From positions 1,711,397 to 1,775,396 of the forward strand of contig OY735212.1 of assembly GCA_963457665.1 (NCBI GenBank): a stretch of DNA of 64,000 nucleotides. The letters are read 5' to 3'. The position numbers and the translations under genes are program-made. Below the pieces are notes generated by a model. That model was not told where the DNA came from. It searched no databases and worked only from the letters and a program-made list of their open reading frames with translations. This stretch comes from Thysanoteuthis rhombus (taxonomy: Eukaryota > Mollusca > Cephalopoda > Oegopsida > Thysanoteuthidae). Of the stretch, positions 3,490 through 63,640 are shown piece by piece; within the stretch, counting starts at the first letter, position 1; every line of letters starts with the position of its first letter.

Positions 3490-4110
3490 AAAATCGCAAA
3501 CACAAAGTTAGACAAAGTGGACCCCAACATCTACCTCGGACAACTAGTCTCCATGAAATCCTCATAAGAAGAAAATCAAGCGAAAAATCAGTCTAGGGTG
3601 GCAAGCCTTCGGTAGAGTAAACTCAGCCCTGTAGAACAAGAAAATCACATTAGTCCTAAAAAGAAGAGTATAGAATCTATGCATCTTCCCGATAGTCACC
3701 TATGGAGCTGAAACATGGAAACTAGCCAAACGATTGACCCTCAAACCGAAAACCATGCAATGCACACAGGAAAGATACATGTTCAGCCTAACATGGAGAG
3801 ATCATGACAGCACAATTTATTTGAGAAAAGACAGGAGTCCGAGACATCATAGAATCTGTTAGAAAACTCAAATGGCAATGGGCTTGACATGTTGCAAGAA
3901 TGTCAGACAGCCGTTGGACATCACGATTCACGACGTGGATCCTCAGAGATCATATGCGAAACTGTGGCCGACAGAAAGAAAGATGACATGACGAACTAGA
4001 TGAATTCAGAAAGTACTGGCTCTGCTATACCTATGATAGAGAGGTGTGGCGAATCTTGGGGAAGGTTTATGTTCGACGACGGACGCTAACTGACTGATGA
4101 TGATGATAAA
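3490..4110 (+). mobile_element. RTE-type LINE, 3' fragment (dead)
   Basis: Frame-hopping translation gives the C-terminal part of an RTE-type reverse transcriptase protein. A YLGQLVSM-like segment is followed by LGWQAFGRVNSA, VTYGAETWKLAKR, LTWRDHDS and finally RNCGRQKERWHDELDEF-KYWL. These are the usual landmarks between the RT thumb and the C-terminus in this group. Several frameshifts and stops make it non-functional. It ends in a short TGATGATGATGAT tail, as RTE elements commonly do. The same 3' end occurs on the other strand near 12310, so the two copies belong to one family. Confidence 0.8.
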
Positions 4111-12304: not shown

Positions 12305-12670
12305 GGATCATCATCATTATCAGTCTTTCAACGTCCGTCGTTGGACATAAAACCTTCCCCAGGATTTGCCACACTTCTCTATCATGGGCGTCACAGAGCC
12401 AGCACTTTCTGAATTTGTCTAGCTCGTCTCTCCATCTAATATTTTGTTGGCCTCGGTTCCGCATGTGATCTCAGGGGATCCATGTGAGTCGCGATGTCCA
12501 TCGTTTGTCCGCCATTCGTGCAACATGGCCAGCCCACTGCCATTTGAGTTTTTTTAATGGATTCTATGATGTCCCTGATTCTTGTCTTTTCCCGGATGTA
12601 CTGTGCTGTCTTGTGGTCTCTCCATGTGAAGCCCAGCATAATCTCTTCATGTGCACACTGCATAGTTCTC
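12305..12670 (-). mobile_element. RTE-type LINE, 3' part (minus arm of inverted copy)
   Basis: On the minus strand the frames read MLGFTWRDHKTAQYIREK, then a shifted W-GWPCCTNGGQTMD stretch, then RNRGQQNIRWRDELDKFRK, and near the end REVWQILGKV..TTDVERL. This is the C-terminal tail of an RTE reverse transcriptase with frameshifts. It ends in a (TGA/ATG)n tail seen as catcatcattatcagt on the plus strand at about 12310. The 3' end matches the copy ending at 4110. It abuts an RT-domain fragment on the opposite strand at about 12670. Confidence 0.85.
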
Positions 12671-12671
12671 A

Positions 12672-12990
12672 ATTTAGAGTAGATGGCGAGTATCTGAGCA
12701 ACCTCAGATTTGTAGACGACATAGCCCTTTTTGCAGAGAACCTACACAACCTCCAACTAATGATAGATGAACTAAATAATGAGAGCAAGAAAGTCGGCTT
12801 ACACATGAACTTCAGCAAGACAAAGATCATATGCAACAACCACATCAGGGATAAAAACACTAAGATCAAAATCGAAGAAACAGAACTGGAGAAAGTAGAT
12901 CACTACATCTACCTAGGACAACAAATCTCCATGAGACCCTCAAAAAAAGAAGAAATCAAGTGAAGAATCACACTAGGATTAGGAAACACA
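12672..12990 (+). mobile_element. RTE-type LINE, RT catalytic part (plus arm of inverted copy)
   Basis: The plus strand encodes VDGEYLSNLRFVDDIALFAE, the catalytic palm motif region with an intact F-V-D-D. It continues through a NFSKTKIICNN stretch and VDHYIYLGQQISM, and ends with KKEEIK, a stop, and RITLGLG. In an intact element this lies upstream of the tail found on the minus strand next door, with about 200 nt missing between them. The opposite orientations, with the upstream part inverted against the 3' part, are what twin priming during LINE insertion produces. The stop and the truncation make it inactive. Confidence 0.85.
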
Positions 12991-50478: not shown

Positions 50479-50751
50479 TGTTGCACTTGACATATTCAGG
50501 GTAGGAACGTCTGTCAAATCATACATCATGAAAAGGAATAAAACTGCACATCGTAGTAGGAGTAGTTTTATTAGAAAAAGCCTTCATGTGTACACAACAA
50601 AAAATAGCTATCAATATCGAATAGCAAAAGAATATACAGACACTGGTGACAACCAATTTATTGTCACTGCTTAATAAATATTCCATTAATTCCACTATCT
50701 GTTCTCATACTGTACAACCTTGTATTGATGCTTATAGGAGAGCACACAACA
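50479..50751 (-). repeat. copia LTR 1 (3' LTR of short unit)
   Basis: Plus-strand ends are TGTTGC at 50479 and CACAACA ending at 50751. It shares tgtcaaatca, aggagtagttttatt, aagccttcatgtg, agctatcaa and gttctcatactgta with LTR 2, in the same order. About 273 bp. Confidence 0.7.
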
Positions 50752-50756
50752 CAGAG

Positions 50757-51130
50757 TTAATATTCCAGTCTGTACTTCTTTTCGCCCATCCTTATAGATT
50801 CTTCCCTCTGCTCGAAATCTATCCCTGGGAAATGCCTAAGTTTCCAGTAATCATGTATTTTGAAATCAGCTGTCCGCATTCTCTTCATATCAGTGGGTGA
50901 GGCCATGACCCTAGCAGTAACAGTTTCGTTGTCAATCAAGAATAACGCTATTCACCGCTTCTCGCCCTGAATCAGTGGAGACACAATGATCTTCTGTATT
51001 CTGCACAAAACCATTTTCTTTTTTAGATAGTCAAGTGAGATTCTGTTTCAATTCCTGCCTGACTGCTTCAGTCTAAAAATGATTTATTTTAAACTAGTTT
51101 CTTTTTTGTTAACCTTGCAGCAGGACCTAA
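50757..51130 (-). pseudogene. copia RT fragment A
   Basis: The minus strand shows a KKKETS remnant, AVRQELKQNLT, KENGFVQNTEDHCVS, and then DMKRMRTADFKIHD and GIDFEQREESIRM. This is the part of RT between the 'L-Y-G-L-K-Q' region and the end of the palm, with the Y-V-D-D box destroyed by frameshift. It joins directly to ankyrin-related sequence on its upstream side, so gag to integrase is missing. Confidence 0.7.
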
Positions 51131-51395
51131 GTTCGAGATGAGTGACAATATATTTCAAAATATATTCTCCGGCATCTTCTTTTTCAAAGTATTTGTCATT
51201 TGCTCTAAATATTTGTAATTGTCTGGTCAGCTAATAGATATGAAACATTCTCAAGTTTCTTACAGTCACTCCATTACTATTAACTGTATCAACACTTATA
51301 TCTTTTATTAGAAAATATGCTGTTATTTGCTTTCTAAAGTGATGACACATTATTCCTTCAAAGTTAGTTCTGTAGATATTAGCTCCATGAAATAG

Positions 51396-51728
51396 TCAGT
51401 CATAACTGAATGTCCACGATGACAAGCTATGAAAAGGGCCACTGCCTGCAAAATGAACATCAGTATTGTGTTGTATGGGGCTCTGGGCTATTTTTAGATT
51501 GTAAAGACTTGCTTTCCAAGGACGATCCAATCTGTTCTCATAGCCAACATCATTTGGATTAGCCCTGCATTCATTCAACATGTAATTTACAAGAGCTAAA
51601 TACGCACTTTTAACTGCAATGTACAAAGGTGATGTTCCGTTTTGTTTGATAGATAGTATATGTTTGTGTTCTCCAAAGGAATAAAGTTGTAGTAATTTCT
51701 GAATTTCATTGATTTTTGTCCTCTTCAT
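51396..51728 (-). pseudogene. Ankyrin-repeat ORF in gag position, copy 1 (FEM1-like)
   Basis: An ATG at 51728, about 60 nt after the LTR end at 51790, opens a 110-codon frame starting MKRTKINEIQKLLQ. An ankyrin repeat follows, with NGTSPLYIAVKSAYLALVNY and MLNECRANPND. A second ankyrin repeat continues in another frame (ALFIACHRGHSVMTDYFMEL, about 51445-51385), so the frame is broken between the repeats. Just before the shift the minus strand reads ttcattttgcag, so a retained splice site is an alternative explanation. The spacing of the two repeats resembles the N-terminus of FEM1-type ankyrin proteins; that subfamily call is tentative. Gag is what normally occupies this place in a copia element. 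Confidence 0.65.
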
Positions 51729-51789
51729 TAAATTCTGCAATTGTTTATCACATGACCCATTCTCTGAGTGATAGAATTCAAAAAAAAAT

Positions 51790-52077
51790 TGTTGTGTTTG
51801 CCATAATTAGGATTGACACAACTGTCAAATCAAAATTAACAGAAATAAAACATATATACATTGTAATGGAAGTAGTATTTTTATAAACAAAAGAAGCCTT
51901 TATTTGTGTGTATATATACACACACACACATACACACACCAAACAGCTATCAAATTTGAATAAAAAATTAAAATATGAACGCCAAAGGTGATCAATTTAT
52001 CGTTCCTTCTGTGACCCCACTCCTAATTGTTCTCATACTGTAAAACCATATTTTTCTACACCTAAGAACACACAACA
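51790..52077 (-). repeat. copia LTR 2 (shared middle LTR)
   Basis: Plus-strand ends are TGTTGTG at 51790 and CACAACA ending at 52077. Matches LTR 1 along its length by the same ordered phrases, with a TG/TA/CA microsatellite expansion at about 51907-51940. About 288 bp. Confidence 0.7.
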
Positions 52078-52116
52078 AAAAGTGGTTTGTAATGTTGTTC
52101 CTTTGATATTCACCTT

Positions 52117-52650
52117 TTAGTTTATCTTTGTAATTCCTTCGTTTAACTCAAAATGAATCCATAGGAAATGCTTGAATTTCCCAAGATCTTCCATCTTGAA
52201 CTTAGTAGTCAGCATTCTCTTTGCATTAGTGAGTGAGTCCATGTCCCTAACAGCTAAGCTGTCAACCCAGTATGCTAGCACTCGTCTCTTCTCATCAAAC
52301 CTGATTAGAGTCATCACAATGATCAATTAGATTCTGCACAAAGCCATTTGTGCTTACCTGACTGCCTCCAGTCCATTTAATGATGTGTTTAATTTATAAA
52401 CTGGTTTCTCATTTGTGTCTAGCTTGGCCTCCAAGTCGTCTTGTAGCTCCATATAAATTTTGCAATCAATCGAAGCTTGCAAATATGCCGTTTTCACAAC
52501 CGTTTGATTGAGGATGAGATTATACTGAGCTGCCATTTGCATTAAGGCACATATCGATGTGATATTTGCAGTTGATGAAAAAGTCTTCTTATAATCTTTC
52601 CCAATTATTTGTCTGTAACCTTGCCTTGTATTTTTCAGATCCATCTGCAT
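52117..52650 (-). pseudogene. copia RT, main copy
   Basis: Two frames in series. 52650-52354 reads GYRQIIGKDYKKTFSSTANI, VVKTAYLQASIDCKIYMELQ and PVYKLNTSLNGLE. 52326-52117 reads VLAYWVDSLAV, where V-D-D should stand, then LTTKFKMEDLGKFKHFLWI. This is the standard copia RT order, inactivated by the D-to-S change and by a frameshift with a stop between the parts. Confidence 0.85.
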
Positions 52651-52689
52651 TTTCTTTCATTGCATATTTGGTCAGGGTGAATTATTTTC

Positions 52690-52823
52690 CTCAAGAGAAT
52701 TTCCTCTTTCATAGTATTAACCCACATCTGTGATTGAGTTGAACTCGTAGCTTCCTTGTAGGTTTGTGATACATTTCTGTAACAGTTGATTTGTGCCTGG
52801 TTATTGCATTCAACATTTGGCAT
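52690..52823 (-). pseudogene. copia linker upstream of RT
   Basis: QTYKEATSSTQSQMWVNTMK then EEILL, matching the 'P-x-x-Y-x-E-A-x-x-S-x-x-x-x-x-W-x-x-A-M-x-x-E' start of copia RT domains. The sequence downstream is frame-shifted. Confidence 0.75.
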
Positions 52824-53029
52824 TTAATCCTTTAAATACTGAGCTGGTTTCCTATATCTCTTGGGGGACCATGAAGTATTACATTCCACATCTGACCGAT
52901 TACTATCTTGACCACCAGATTTTATTTTAGACTTTTGAACCTCCTTTGGTTTCTGACTTGAAAGAAATCTTGTTCTGTAGAGATCATCATTTACAATTAG
53001 CAGTCAGTTTGAGTCTGGTACTCAAGTAA

Positions 53030-53700
53030 ATTCTTTGTGACAAACTTCACTGGTCTATGCTTCAGAACTTCTCAATTTTCTAATTAGTAAATCAAATATG
53101 AAAGGCAATTTTTATCATATCCAACAAATAATCCCTTTTCTCATCGTATTTTTAATTTCTTCTTGTCTTGTATGCGTTGCATACTGATCCCAAAACTCTC
53201 ATGTTGGAGAGGTTGGGTTTCCTCCTTGTTACCACGTAGTATGGGATTTGCTTTATACTATTATTAAAGCACCCATTGCGAATTACCAAATAGTCCTCAC
53301 AGTGTATAGCCATAATATTTTAGGCAGATTGCTTTTAATGATTATACACTTTACCATCACCAAAAGAGTTCTCCAACTCCTCTTGGTGGTTCCATTTGAT
53401 TTAGTGTGTAAAGTGTCTAAGTCTCATATCAGATGCCATCCTTACTGAACAATGATTGAATTCAGTACCATTTTCAGACCTTAAATACTTACAAGTCCCA
53501 TAAGGAACTGAATCTGCAATGAATCTTTTGTAGCCAACAGAGTATCACTCCTGTATTCCAGGAAATACAACATGACAAGTGAGAAATTCACGCTGAATAC
53601 GGTGGCCTATCTGGATCCATCTTATGCCACTGGATCAATAGGGCCGACCAAATAAGTGTGCACACATTCATGTTTGGCCTCTGCTCGTGTATTAGGTAGA
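53030..53700 (-). pseudogene. copia integrase (core and C-terminal part)
   Basis: The core shows a KRFIADSVPYGTCKYLRSEN segment followed by GTEF, the conserved 'L-R-S-D-N-G-x-E-F' region with E in place of the catalytic D. The C-terminal part (about 53150-53030) reads KGLFVGYDKNCLSYLIY and KHRPVKFVTKN, typical of copia 'G-x-F-V-G-Y' modules. Stops occur throughout. Confidence 0.75.
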
Positions 53701-53706
53701 TGGCTT

Positions 53707-54010
53707 CTACTCTAGGCTGATTCCCCCCCACCCCATGGTGTAATTCAAGTTTGACTTGTCTTCTTTGCCCTTAACTTTCATCACCTTTACAACTTCTTGT
53801 GATTCAATAACACCTTCATTGTTACATTGACCCAGGATTTTGTGGCAAGTCTGAATATCATAGCACCCATGACTATCATCTTCATTATTCTTGGAGATGT
53901 TAAAATGGTAAAGTCTGCTATACACTTCTATGCTGAATCTGGTACCATCTTCATGAATTACTTCAATCCAGTCCTCCTTAAATGTAACTGTTGCTCCATT
54001 GGTTGATGCT
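53707..54010 (-). pseudogene. copia protease-end and GAG-pre-integrase
   Basis: Reads GATVTFKEDWIEVIHEDGTR, SIEVYSRLYHFNI, then DIQTCHKILGQCNNEGVIES and MKVKGKEDKSNLNY. This is the pre-integrase zinc-binding region in which 'W-H-x-x-L-G-H-x-N' is altered to C-H-K-I-L-G-Q-C-N. It follows RT fragment B directly, an impossible order for one element, so two copies have been joined here. Confidence 0.75.
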
Positions 54011-54149
54011 GTTTTCCATCAGAATTCTTATCCTTGTCTTGTGAGCAGACGCCTGCATAATCTTCCTTTAATGCAATACCACTTCTTGCTCTATCAGCAA
54101 GTTCAGCATGATGTTTTTTTCTGGTTGGAATGTGTTGTTTCTGATGCCC

Positions 54150-54375
54150 TTTATTCAATATTATTGAGGCCATGTCCCAAGCAGCAACATTTAAGTCATC
54201 AGCCCAGAATAATAGCATTGTTCTCTCCTTATCAATCTGCTTTGTGTAAACACAATGATCAACCGAATTCTGTACAAATCCATTTTTGCTTATGCAGTCA
54301 TGTCACATTTTGTTCTAATTTGTACCTGACTGCTCTGCTTAATTAATAAACTGGTTTCTTTTTTGTTAACCTTGC
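54150..54375 (-). pseudogene. copia RT fragment B
   Basis: GLAARLTKKKPVY, AVRYKLEQNVT, KWICTEFG and then MLLFWADDLNVAAWDMASI. The catalytic box reads W-A-D-D. It corresponds to RT fragment A at 50757-51130 and, like it, is fused upstream to ankyrin-related sequence (EYDVLKSIVTHLEHARI). Confidence 0.7.
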
Positions 54376-54786
54376 TGCAAGACCTGTGTCATTGAGATGT
54401 ATTCTTGCATGTTCGAGATGAGTGACAATAGATTTTAAAACATCATATTCTATGGAGTGTTTTTTTTTTTTCCAGGAATTCATATGGTTTGTCTAAATAT
54501 TTCTTGAGTTTCCCTGTCATACATTTGATCATTATCAAAAAGGAATTCACCCCTTGACTGTTGTCTAGTCAGTTCCTGCAGCTAATAGATATGAAACACT
54601 CCCAAGTTTCAAGCATTCTATAGCTAACGTAAGTGAAGTCACTCTATTATCATTCACCACATCAGCACTTAAGACTTTACGTAGCAAATAACTGCATATT
54701 TTCTAATAAAAGATATGACACATTATTCCTTCAAAGTTAGTTCTGTAGATATTAGCTCCATGAAATAGTCAGTCATAACTGAATGT

Positions 54787-55101
54787 CTATGATGACAAGC
54801 TATGAAAAGGGCCACTGCCTGCAGAATGAACATCAGTATTGTGTTGTATGGGGCTCTGGGCTATTTTTAGATTGTAAAGACTTGCTTTCCAAGGACGATC
54901 CAATCTGTTCTCATAGCCAACATCATTTGGATCAACCCTGCATTCATTCAACATGTAATTTACAAGAGCTAAATACGCACTTTTAACTGCAATGTACAAA
55001 GGTGATGTTCCGTTTTGTTTGATAGATAGTATATGTTTACGTTCTCCAAAGGAATAAAGTTGTAGTAATTTCTGAATTTCATTGATTTTTGTCCTCTTCA
55101 T
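54787..55101 (-). pseudogene. Ankyrin-repeat ORF in gag position, copy 2
   Basis: A near-identical partner of 51396-51728, with the ATG at 55101, 62 nt from the LTR end at 55163. Across 54715-55173 versus 51342-51800 I count 8 differences in 459 aligned positions without gaps, all transitions. The second-repeat region here reads ACHHRHSVM rather than ACHRGHSVM. The same frame break between the two repeats is present, so the break predates the separation of the copies or was spread by conversion. Confidence 0.65.
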
Positions 55102-55162
55102 TAAATTCTGCAATTGTTTGTCACATGACCCATTCTCTGAGTGATAGAATTCAAAAAAAAAT

Positions 55163-55375
55163 TGTTGTGTTTGACGTAATTAGGATGGGAACAACTGTCA
55201 AATCAGATCTCATAACTGAGAAATAAACCAAATTGTCATTGTAGGAGTACTTTTATTGAAAAGAAGCCTTTATATGCACTCGACAAACTGCTATCAAATT
55301 CAAATCCCTCAAGAAAGTAGAAATTCTGGATCCACCCAATTTATCACCCATGCTTAATAGACAGTCCATTAATAA
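55163..55375 (-). repeat. copia LTR 3 (5' LTR, truncated)
   Basis: The plus-strand edge TGTTGTG at 55163 matches LTR 2. tgtcaaatca, aggagtacttttattgaaaa, aagcctttatatg, ctatcaaattcaaat and gcttaata..ccattaat follow in the same order as LTR 1 and LTR 2. Homology stops near 55375, before the region with gttctcatactg. Confidence 0.65.
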
Positions 55376-60689: not shown

Positions 60690-62339
60690 AAATGGATATA
60701 GAGATGAAGTAAATAGTCTGGCCAGTTTATACCTGATGTTTCTGTCACTCATTCTTTATCAATGATAATTTACGTATAAACTCGTACACAAGGGAGAATA
60801 TGGCGAAAATAATCAAAAATATTAAAAATTGTCGAGGCTGACTGAAATATTATAAAAATTGGAAGATGAATGACACTGAAATAGTTCAAGAAACATCGGT
60901 CAAGGGTTCAGTGAAATCCCTGTTTTAAAAAGGCCAATCTATTACAAAGAAAATCAAGCCTGAAAGTCTGATCATAGATGTGCTAGTTTAATCATCAGTG
61001 CCTTTGAAAGCCCCTTTCGTCTAAAAGACCTCTCCTTTCATAGCTCCCTACTTTAATGACCCTTTCGTCAGAAAAACAAACTTCATTCAGTGGTAGTATC
61101 GTAATAAAATAGAATTTCATTCTTGCAGTTGTCTTCTGTCGTAGTTAAACATTTACTGCATACGTCTGAAATTTCCTTCATGGCAGATCTAGATTTCCAT
61201 TAGTCACAAAATAGACACTTCCTCTTGAAATCATGGACAACTGTTTTTTTGCTTGTTTCTCTCTCCGTAATTTCTCTTCGATTGTTCAAAACTGACCATT
61301 CGATCAAATATTCAATTCATTTAGTGCTATGGACTCTGAAAAGGTTTCTCCTTTTTATTTGTATTCCCGAAATGAATTTATATAATACTCTTCATATCTT
61401 TATACTTATTTTTTTTTAATTGATGTGATTATCTCGAGGAGGTCAATCACTTTTAAACAATCCAGTGTTTACCAAAATGCAAATTTGTGCAGACATTTAT
61501 CACTGGTTCACGAACTAAAATATCTAACAGAGTTAACAAATAACTCTGTTTTGGACGGCTGCTCAAACGAACATTTTAAGGAATAAATGAAAGCAGAAAA
61601 CTTGAACATTTAAAACTGCATATTATAAAATTTCACAAAGGATATAATTTAGGGTTAGTTTTAGGGTTGGTATTGTGTCGGGGTTATTCAGCATTTTTAT
61701 ATTTTTGTTGTTTTTATAGACGATATAATTTAGTTTTAGGGACAGGCTTAGAGTTGATGCTACAAGTAACAACAAAAAACGATTGAACATTCCTTTTTAT
61801 AACTATAGAATTAAAAAAAATATGTACATTAGCAACTATTCATGAAAGTTTATTCTACAACCCGAACCCAAACATCTAAAAGTAACCGTAAAATTAAAGT
61901 ATATCCTTCATAATGAAATTTAATCAAGTACCTTTTTGAATTTTAACATTTTCTGCTCTCATTTGTTTCTCGATACGTTAATAGCAGCCGCATAAGTCTG
62001 CTTCATTTATTACCTCCCTTTCGAAATTTTAGTTTACGAACCGGTAACAAGTCTTTACTAGTATAGAATGTAGAGTCTATTGTTGAATCCGAACAGCGAT
62101 GGATTGTTAAGAGACGAGGATTTTGGATCCTCGTGGGTGATGTGTAGTGCGCCGGCCCTGTAGATATGGAAGGAAAGGAAACTGTACAAAGAGAATGAAA
62201 TGCGCGCCAAATATGAAGTTGGACACGCATTGAAGTAAAGAGGAATAAACACATATAAGAATTATGGCCAGACAAGAGACGTACGTTTAATACAAGAATG
62301 AAGATGGGGTACATGTAAAGATAACATTAACACAATCGA

Positions 62340-62620
62340 TTGTGAGAAGTAATGTTAGGAGAAGAGATAATAAAAGGTGGGGGCTTTTTATCTTGATAAT
62401 GCTGGAGTCGAAGTTGTAGCGGAGTTGTTTGAACGCGTGGAAACCGGGCTCAGTGTGCGAGCCTTACTGCCAAGTGAGTGAGTTAACTTGGCGGCTATTC
62501 TCAGACGCTGTTAGACTCTCGACGAACAGACTATGAAAGACATAGAACATGGAGTTTTATCCATGCGTATTTCTCGAAGTGAGGATCGTGATTAAGATCG
62601 AATCGGCCCGTGGGTTGGCG
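62340..62620 (+). other. GC-richer block, possible LTR-like sequence
   Basis: An aataaaagg TATA-like motif (about 62369), gtcgaagttgtagcggagtt, and a ggttggcgacatgataacga sequence at its end resemble the promoter-to-primer-site layout of Ty3-type LTRs (which often continue 'ttggcgac'). No gag or pol follows. It could equally be part of another retroposon. A two-copy tandem repeat follows directly. Confidence 0.25.
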
Positions 62621-62633
62621 ACATGATAACGAG

Positions 62634-62815
62634 CTTGGAGAGAAGGAAAGAGAGTAGCCGGCTGCAAAGGCCGGGGCCAGAGGCATGACCAGCTAGGGTT
62701 CCTGGCGCCAGTGAGCATTGAACTAGGGAGAAGGAAAGAAAAAGAATGGCCAGCCGCAGAGGCTGGGGCTAGAAGCGTCACCAGCTAGGGGTGCTTGAGT
62801 TAGTGAGCACTGGAT
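62634..62815. repeat. Two-copy tandem repeat, ~91-bp unit, GC-rich
   Basis: The units 62634-62724 and 62725-62815 share gagaaggaaag, gccg(g/c)..gc(a/g)..gg(c)cggggc, accagctaggg and agtgagca(t/c)tg. About 80% identical by eye. GC content is far above the window average. Confidence 0.75.
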
Positions 62816-63640
62816 CATATGCGTCCAGGGGTTCTAGAGGGATCGTCAGAGGAAGTGACGTTTTGGATATCGAGCTAAAAGAAGACTTTCGTACTTAATT
62901 CCTAACTAAAAATATTGGGGGCACTACACTAGAAATTACTTAGTTTATACACATAATCTTAGGATAACTTATCATTTCACAGTTTGGAGAATAGATGTTT
63001 ACATTTAATCGATGAAAGGTTTTAAGAGGCCATTGATGTCCATGCTTGGTCGGCTGATTGGCTCTGAAATTTACTGGGCAGACGAGTTTTTGCACTAATT
63101 GACGACTTTGATTCTGTAATAACTTTTGTAAAACTGAATCAATTTTAAATAACACCATATCATCTTGTAGAGATCTTAACTGCGAGAAGCTTTTTTTATT
63201 AACACCGATTCAGGAGAATTGCTCCGAAAAACGTTAGATACAATTGGTGTAAGGAATTTTTACTTCAAAATTGATACAACGCAGTGTACGCTTGTACTGT
63301 TGAAGTGAAACACACCAAACTTTCCATAAACACTGAATTCGATCAAGTAAATGTTGTTGTTTTTTGTTTTTTTGTTTTTTTCTGAAAGGAAAACAAAGGA
63401 TTTTCTGATTTGTAAACATGTAGGAGTTTCAATGTCAGAGATGAGAGATTTCGTAAGTCTGGCACAGATAAATCATTTTCAAAAAAAATTACCTTCATTA
63501 ACCAGTTGCCCCATGGGAACATTTGTAATGTTCAGTTTATGATGGTGAAATTGGCGGGTTGAGTCTTCCCAGGAACTACGTAATAGTAATTAATAAATGA
63601 CAGGTCTAGTATCACTAGTATCCTGATTAATAATGTAAGT
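62816..63640. other. Intergenic, nothing recognised
   Basis: AT-rich sequence without repeats or exon-like segments, with a short T/G tract near 63352-63382. Confidence 0.45.

Follow-up and report, generated by a model that had tools for sequence, protein, structure and literature searches.

The 64,000-nucleotide stretch of Thysanoteuthis rhombus DNA analysed here (contig OY735212.1, positions 1,711,397 to 1,775,396; hereafter the window) carries two units, each of which appears to combine a long terminal repeat (LTR) of the copia family, the 5′ part of a fem-1-like ankyrin pseudogene and a reverse transcriptase (RT) fragment. The units are diverged from each other and share one block of 459 bp in which they are nearly identical. 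This block is very probably best explained by interlocus gene conversion, in which one unit would have been repaired from the other long after the two had separated.

The block and its flanks

The two copies of the block lie 3.37 kb apart (table 1). They align without a gap over 459 positions and differ at eight of them (block positions 74, 76, 110, 219, 221, 325, 326 and 406), exclusively by transitions, just as the preliminary description had reported. In unit 1 the block comprises the 5′ part of the ankyrin pseudogene up to about position 51728, the bases lying upstream of this part and, at its right end, the first 11 bp of the LTR if the LTR start is taken as 51790. Further copies were sought by a DNA search of the species' own genome (514 contigs), in which only the two copies of the window are close and the third match is 69% identical. 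The evidence base is the assembled sequence of one individual, and the window contains no N.

Homology continues on both sides of the block and is interrupted by indels, as had been described, but the similarity of 65-75% claimed for the flanks was too low, since over ungapped columns they are 75-84% identical. Between the units, identity amounts to 139/165 ungapped columns in the ankyrin remainder left of an inversion discussed below, 79/94 in the first 100 bp of the LTR right of the block and 181/241 in the RT part. These three pieces were pooled, without the inversion of 43 bp and without the LTR sequence beyond the first 100 bp (the whole LTR stretch is identical in 129/157). In the pool, 101 of the 500 ungapped columns differ and there are 24 gap events, compared with 8/459 and no gap event in the block (binomial P = 9e-34, Fisher P = 4e-22). 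When all 109 differences were placed at random over the 959 columns, such a run appeared in none of 20000 trials. Ankyrin homology extends to the left of the block (approximately 51131-51297 and 54379-54714), which makes the block a portion of a longer ankyrin pseudogene.

The sliding comparison that the preliminary description had called for was made in windows of 30 ungapped columns. Each of the 15 windows within the block has 28-30 matches. The two windows immediately to the left, both of which cover the inversion, have 19/30 and 21/30, and the ten further left, in the adjoining flank or the RT part, have 20-28/30. To the right, a window straddling the edge has 25/30 and the following one 28/30 with 13 gap columns, after which the values are 22, 25 and 24/30. 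The identity step is visible in how far the alignment runs without a gap and less in each single window.

At the left edge lies a feature that had previously been missed, a microinversion in which a short stretch is replaced in place by its reverse complement between collinear flanks. The 43 bp concerned match between the units in opposite orientation at 39/43 positions; the local score of this inverted match is 31, and none of 2000 base shuffles scored above 14. In unit 1 a single base separates the inversion from the block, and in unit 2 the corresponding stretch overlaps the first two bases of the block. The stretch of unit 2 is collinear with an intact relative of the ankyrin gene elsewhere in the genome (on C48), within a match to residues 9-201, whereas in unit 1 it is the opposite strand of 51300-51338 that matches residues 151-163 of that gene (9/13, E 0.10). 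Therefore, the inversion belongs to unit 1. With 43 bp it is longer than the 17-33 bp of the human-chimpanzee set in the part of PMC8755829 used here, and it resembles the template-switch microinversions described there in that a few tens of bases are inverted in place.

Probable gene conversion between the units

Gene conversion, one of the explanations offered in the preliminary description, turned out to be the best supported of them. It accounts for the gap-free near-identical run between collinear but diverged flanks, for the lack of any other close copy in the genome search and for the length of the tract. Homologous flanks on both sides are clearly more diverged than the tract, the other unit is present as a candidate donor, and the identity of the tract is free of block-specific constraint in a frame-guided comparison, although an unguided alignment pointed otherwise. 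According to the passages of PMC3924818 consulted here, most estimates of conversion tract lengths range from 50 to several hundred bp, and a tract of 459 bp fits this range. The likeness to interlocus conversion between tandem duplicates as portrayed in these passages extends to the collinear paralogous units and the single short tract of high identity. What differs from the usual case is that the partners are pseudogene and retroelement fragments, that they were already about 80% identical, and that a microinversion stands at one edge. A recent copy-paste of just this block, which had also been proposed, has the same outcome in the sequence and is indistinguishable from conversion here.

The history may be pictured as follows. 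An old tandem duplication would have produced the two units, which then diverged neutrally to about 80% identity and accumulated many indels. When roughly 90% of the time since the duplication had passed, one unit would have suffered a break and been repaired with the other unit as template, and the repair would have overwritten approximately 459 bp. On the left, the tract may have stopped at the 43-bp inversion that was presumably already present in unit 1; on the right, it would have ended just within the LTR. The eight differences would be ordinary substitutions that have occurred since. A homology-dependent tract should stop at an inversion, and a left edge one base from such heterology therefore fits conversion. 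As a Jukes-Cantor distance, the divergence between the two blocks is 0.075 times that between the pooled flanks and 0.10 times that between the ankyrin flanks, and these ratios would place the conversion at about 7-10% of the age of the duplication, in its last tenth, if rates were even.

The inversion could instead have arisen together with the block, in a single template-switching repair, with the sister unit as template for the 459 bp and with 43 bp copied in reverse at its end. The position of the inversion, one base from the block edge, speaks for this, and template switching or microhomology-mediated break-induced replication is held to cause microinversions (PMC8755829, in the part used here). 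However, the inversion differs at 4/43 positions, a higher rate than the 8/459 of the block (P 0.014) and one that shows no clear difference from that of the flanks (P 0.11). This comparison favours an inversion that is older than the conversion and that acted as a barrier to the tract, but it does so weakly, since three of the four differences sit side by side. A single event of this kind is therefore considered rather improbable.

Several observations weigh against gene conversion. Individual 30-column windows in the flanks reach 28/30 matches. Conversion between sequences that are about 20% diverged is rarer than between close copies. Three close pairs, each within two bases, occur among the eight differences (P 0.0009, post hoc). 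Since the two changes of the pair 219/221 took place in different lineages, that pair represents two events rather than one; the remaining close pairs are left unexplained by the conversion model. Finally, in the unguided nucleotide alignment to the C48 gene, the block is better matched than the flank in unit 2 (280/396 against 89/153) and in unit 1 (282/396 against 54/111, inversion included). The last of these points is examined below together with selection.

Copia remnants and the ankyrin pseudogene

The units had been presented as retroelement units. The copia LTR and RT pieces are indeed there, but the ankyrin stretch reads as a decayed gene of host type. The three LTR-like pieces of the window are 78-83% alike over ungapped columns and have three more matches on other contigs. 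The LTR identification is supported by two other contigs, C37, where a copia body has an LTR piece downstream of it, and C22, where such a body has an LTR end upstream. The RVT_2-type reverse transcriptase that characterizes Ty1/copia elements is present in the body between the units (table 1; E 3.4e-15, above the cut-off), and a second match at 52117-52326 is below the cut-off. Together with the TGTTG...CAACA ends of the LTR and the related bodies and LTR pieces on C37 and C22, this is the likeness to Ty1/copia. An LTR pair enclosing an intact body with a primer-binding site (PBS) was not found in the window, which holds three LTR pieces and a body broken by stops. Judged by these features, the copia sequence is a remnant.

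The ankyrin-RT and the LTR-ankyrin junctions are common to both units, and the RT-LTR junction is seen twice, at 50757 and 52103. These recurring junctions point to one ancestral arrangement that would subsequently have been duplicated in tandem. At both RT-LTR junctions, the RT adjoins the LTR directly, unlike the C37 copy (L044), which has about 550 bp between them. The direct contact suggests a common deletion, perhaps of the RNase H region.

The same architecture could go back to capture of the ankyrin gene by an LTR retroelement, with the units as two insertions, a history compatible with conversion of the block. Unit 1 indeed has the order LTR, ankyrin, RT, LTR on one strand. At the ends of X1 and X2 beside the ankyrin stretch, however, there is no PBS-like sequence, and a T tract is found instead. 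Among five other LTR ends, GGTTATGGGCCCAG, which we take to be the copia-type primer-binding sequence, follows the LTR in L045 and a similar sequence does so in L030, but L028, L029 and L044 (three of the five) also lack sequence of this type, so that this point is suggestive. Moreover, the own-genome search gave no dispersed ankyrin-RT fusion, only the copies of the window, and the junctions are common to both units. Capture is thus quite unlikely, and a copia element that lay beside an ankyrin gene and was duplicated with it would be the likelier origin.

Read on the minus strand, the block corresponds to the 5′ part of an ankyrin gene, with Ank matches below the cut-off. The own-genome protein search gave 19 matches, two of which are the copies of the window, and the best of the others, at 53% identity, is the C48 gene, a single intact open frame of 584 codons whose protein has a strong ankyrin-repeat match. 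Compared with solved structures, this protein matches chains of fem-1 homologs C (residues 15-209) and B among many ankyrin proteins. The label 'fem-1-like', for the C48 gene and the pseudogenes alike, remains tentative because generic ankyrins score higher. A cluster of related ankyrin open frames (590-617 codons, on both strands) is located within 69 kb at C31:25138268-25206624 and holds eight of the 19 protein matches (L007, L010, L011, L014, L015, L016, L018 and L020).

Protein similarity to this intact gene is what the window copies have in common with fem-1-like ankyrin genes; in contrast to such genes, they are truncated, frameshifted and internally deleted. Unit 2 matches residues 9-201 of the C48 gene, residues 202-225 in another frame and residues 384-413, and unit 1 matches residues 9-174 and 361-396. 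No match to the C48 gene was found in unit 2 for residues 226-383 or in unit 1 for residues 175-360. Compared with that gene, both blocks have lost the same 7 bases at one place and 11 at another. Neither unit contains an intact ankyrin open frame; both have stops, frame changes and an internal deletion, and both stretches are accordingly classified as pseudogene pieces of a decayed host-type gene.

Table 1. Features of the two units and their surroundings (positions in the window).
Feature	Position	Strand	Remarks
Near-identical block, unit 1	51342..51800	(-)	5′ part of ankyrin pseudogene, upstream bases and start of LTR
Near-identical block, unit 2	54715..55173	(-)	Counterpart of the unit 1 block
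Microinversion of 43 bp, unit 1	51298..51340	.	Reverse complement of 54674-54716, 39/43
Counterpart 43 bp, unit 2	54674..54716	.	Same orientation as the intact relative
Remaining ankyrin pseudogene, unit 1	51131..51297	(-)	139/165 ungapped columns identical to unit 2
Remaining ankyrin pseudogene, unit 2	54379..54714	(-)	Host residues to 225, then 384-413; middle missing
RT fragment, unit 1	50757..51130	(-)	RVT_2 match below cut-off (50757-50951)
RT fragment, unit 2	54140..54385	(-)	Joins ankyrin pseudogene at same place as in unit 1
Copia-family LTR X2	51790..52077	(-)	TGTTG...CAACA ends
Copia-family LTR X3	50479..50751	(-)	LTR similarity
Copia-family LTR X1, truncated	55163..55373	(-)	LTR similarity
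Decayed copia body between units	52103..54139	(-)	RVT_2 at 52354-52656; related bodies on other contigs

Selection, mutation and the meaning of the block

If the block were a functional exon, RNA or regulatory element, purifying selection could have preserved it while the flanks drifted. Unit 1 has a frame that stays open across the greater part of the block (136 codons from stop to stop), and the higher identity of the block in the unguided alignment to the C48 gene points in the same direction. The frame-guided count, which used each C48 residue a single time and was limited to collinear matches with an E value of 0.1 or less, does not confirm that excess for unit 2 and is trusted more than the unguided alignment. 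In unit 2, the block and the left flank are equally diverged from the C48 gene (62/129 against 46/105 amino acids, 245/387 against 200/315 nucleotides). In unit 1, the corresponding values are 61/129 against 24/59 amino acids and 242/387 against 102/177 nucleotides, the latter a small difference without significance (P 0.31).

The differences between the copies argue in the same way. In the long open frame, five of the eight are nonsynonymous, one of which replaces W by a stop in unit 2, and the other three are synonymous, with two changes within one codon counted separately. In the stretch bounded by the gaps of 11 and 7 bases, this frame departs from that of the C48 gene. In the C48 frame, the three differences located there read L to L, R to H and G to R, and if the C48 frame is followed throughout there are again five nonsynonymous and three synonymous differences and the stop in unit 2 disappears. 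The stop therefore counts against a functional frame only with the reservation that it lies in a stretch shifted from the gene's own frame. The shared 7- and 11-base deletions likewise speak against a maintained exon. Given the equal divergence of block and flank in unit 2 and the five nonsynonymous differences, selection on the block was rejected as very improbable.

It is very improbable that an assembly or polishing artefact wrote one copy over the other, as the copies differ at eight sites, the units cannot be a simple false duplication with flanks at 75-84% identity, the DNA search gave no further close copy, the window is free of N and the left edge falls at natural heterology.

The preliminary description had also raised an editing or mutation process confined to transitions, but such a process is not needed. 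Six of the eight differences can be polarized with the C48 gene (position 325 cannot, and position 406 is located in an unreliable part of the alignment). Five of the six are C-to-T or G-to-A and one is A-to-G, distributed over both lineages: two C-to-T, one A-to-G and one G-to-A in unit 2, and two C-to-T in unit 1. One-way A-to-G editing was accordingly rejected. Considering that the window is also poor in CpG (observed/expected 0.43), ordinary C-to-T decay would suffice, with the old flanks as the only baseline. The proportion of transitions, 8/8, exceeds the 50/101 of the flanks (P 0.0036), but this comparison is unfair as the old flanks are saturated.

Other features of the window lie outside the two units. 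An imperfect palindrome at 55951-56234 matches its own reverse complement at 72%. At about 62070-62930 there is a high-copy repeat with 39 long matches elsewhere, at 80-89% identity, among the 50 matches listed; in the scan for such repeats 40 of 19876 first-look candidates were scored. The open frame at 22092-22727 matches CD225 (interferon-induced transmembrane protein; 27.4 against a cut-off of 27.1 bits, E 3.8e-6). An RT fragment is found at 12310-12960 (RVT_1, E 3.6e-7), and its part at 12310-12667 recurs in inverted orientation at 3751-4107 (78%).

The observation is real and its mechanism is ordinary; the microinversion at the edge of the block is the most interesting detail. The block is evidence neither of function nor of a new editing process. 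Ordinary gene conversion apparently acted here on non-functional sequences that were already about 20% diverged, and an inversion marks one edge of the tract. Dating such repeats or pseudogenes by one well-preserved block alone would be in error by a factor of about ten.

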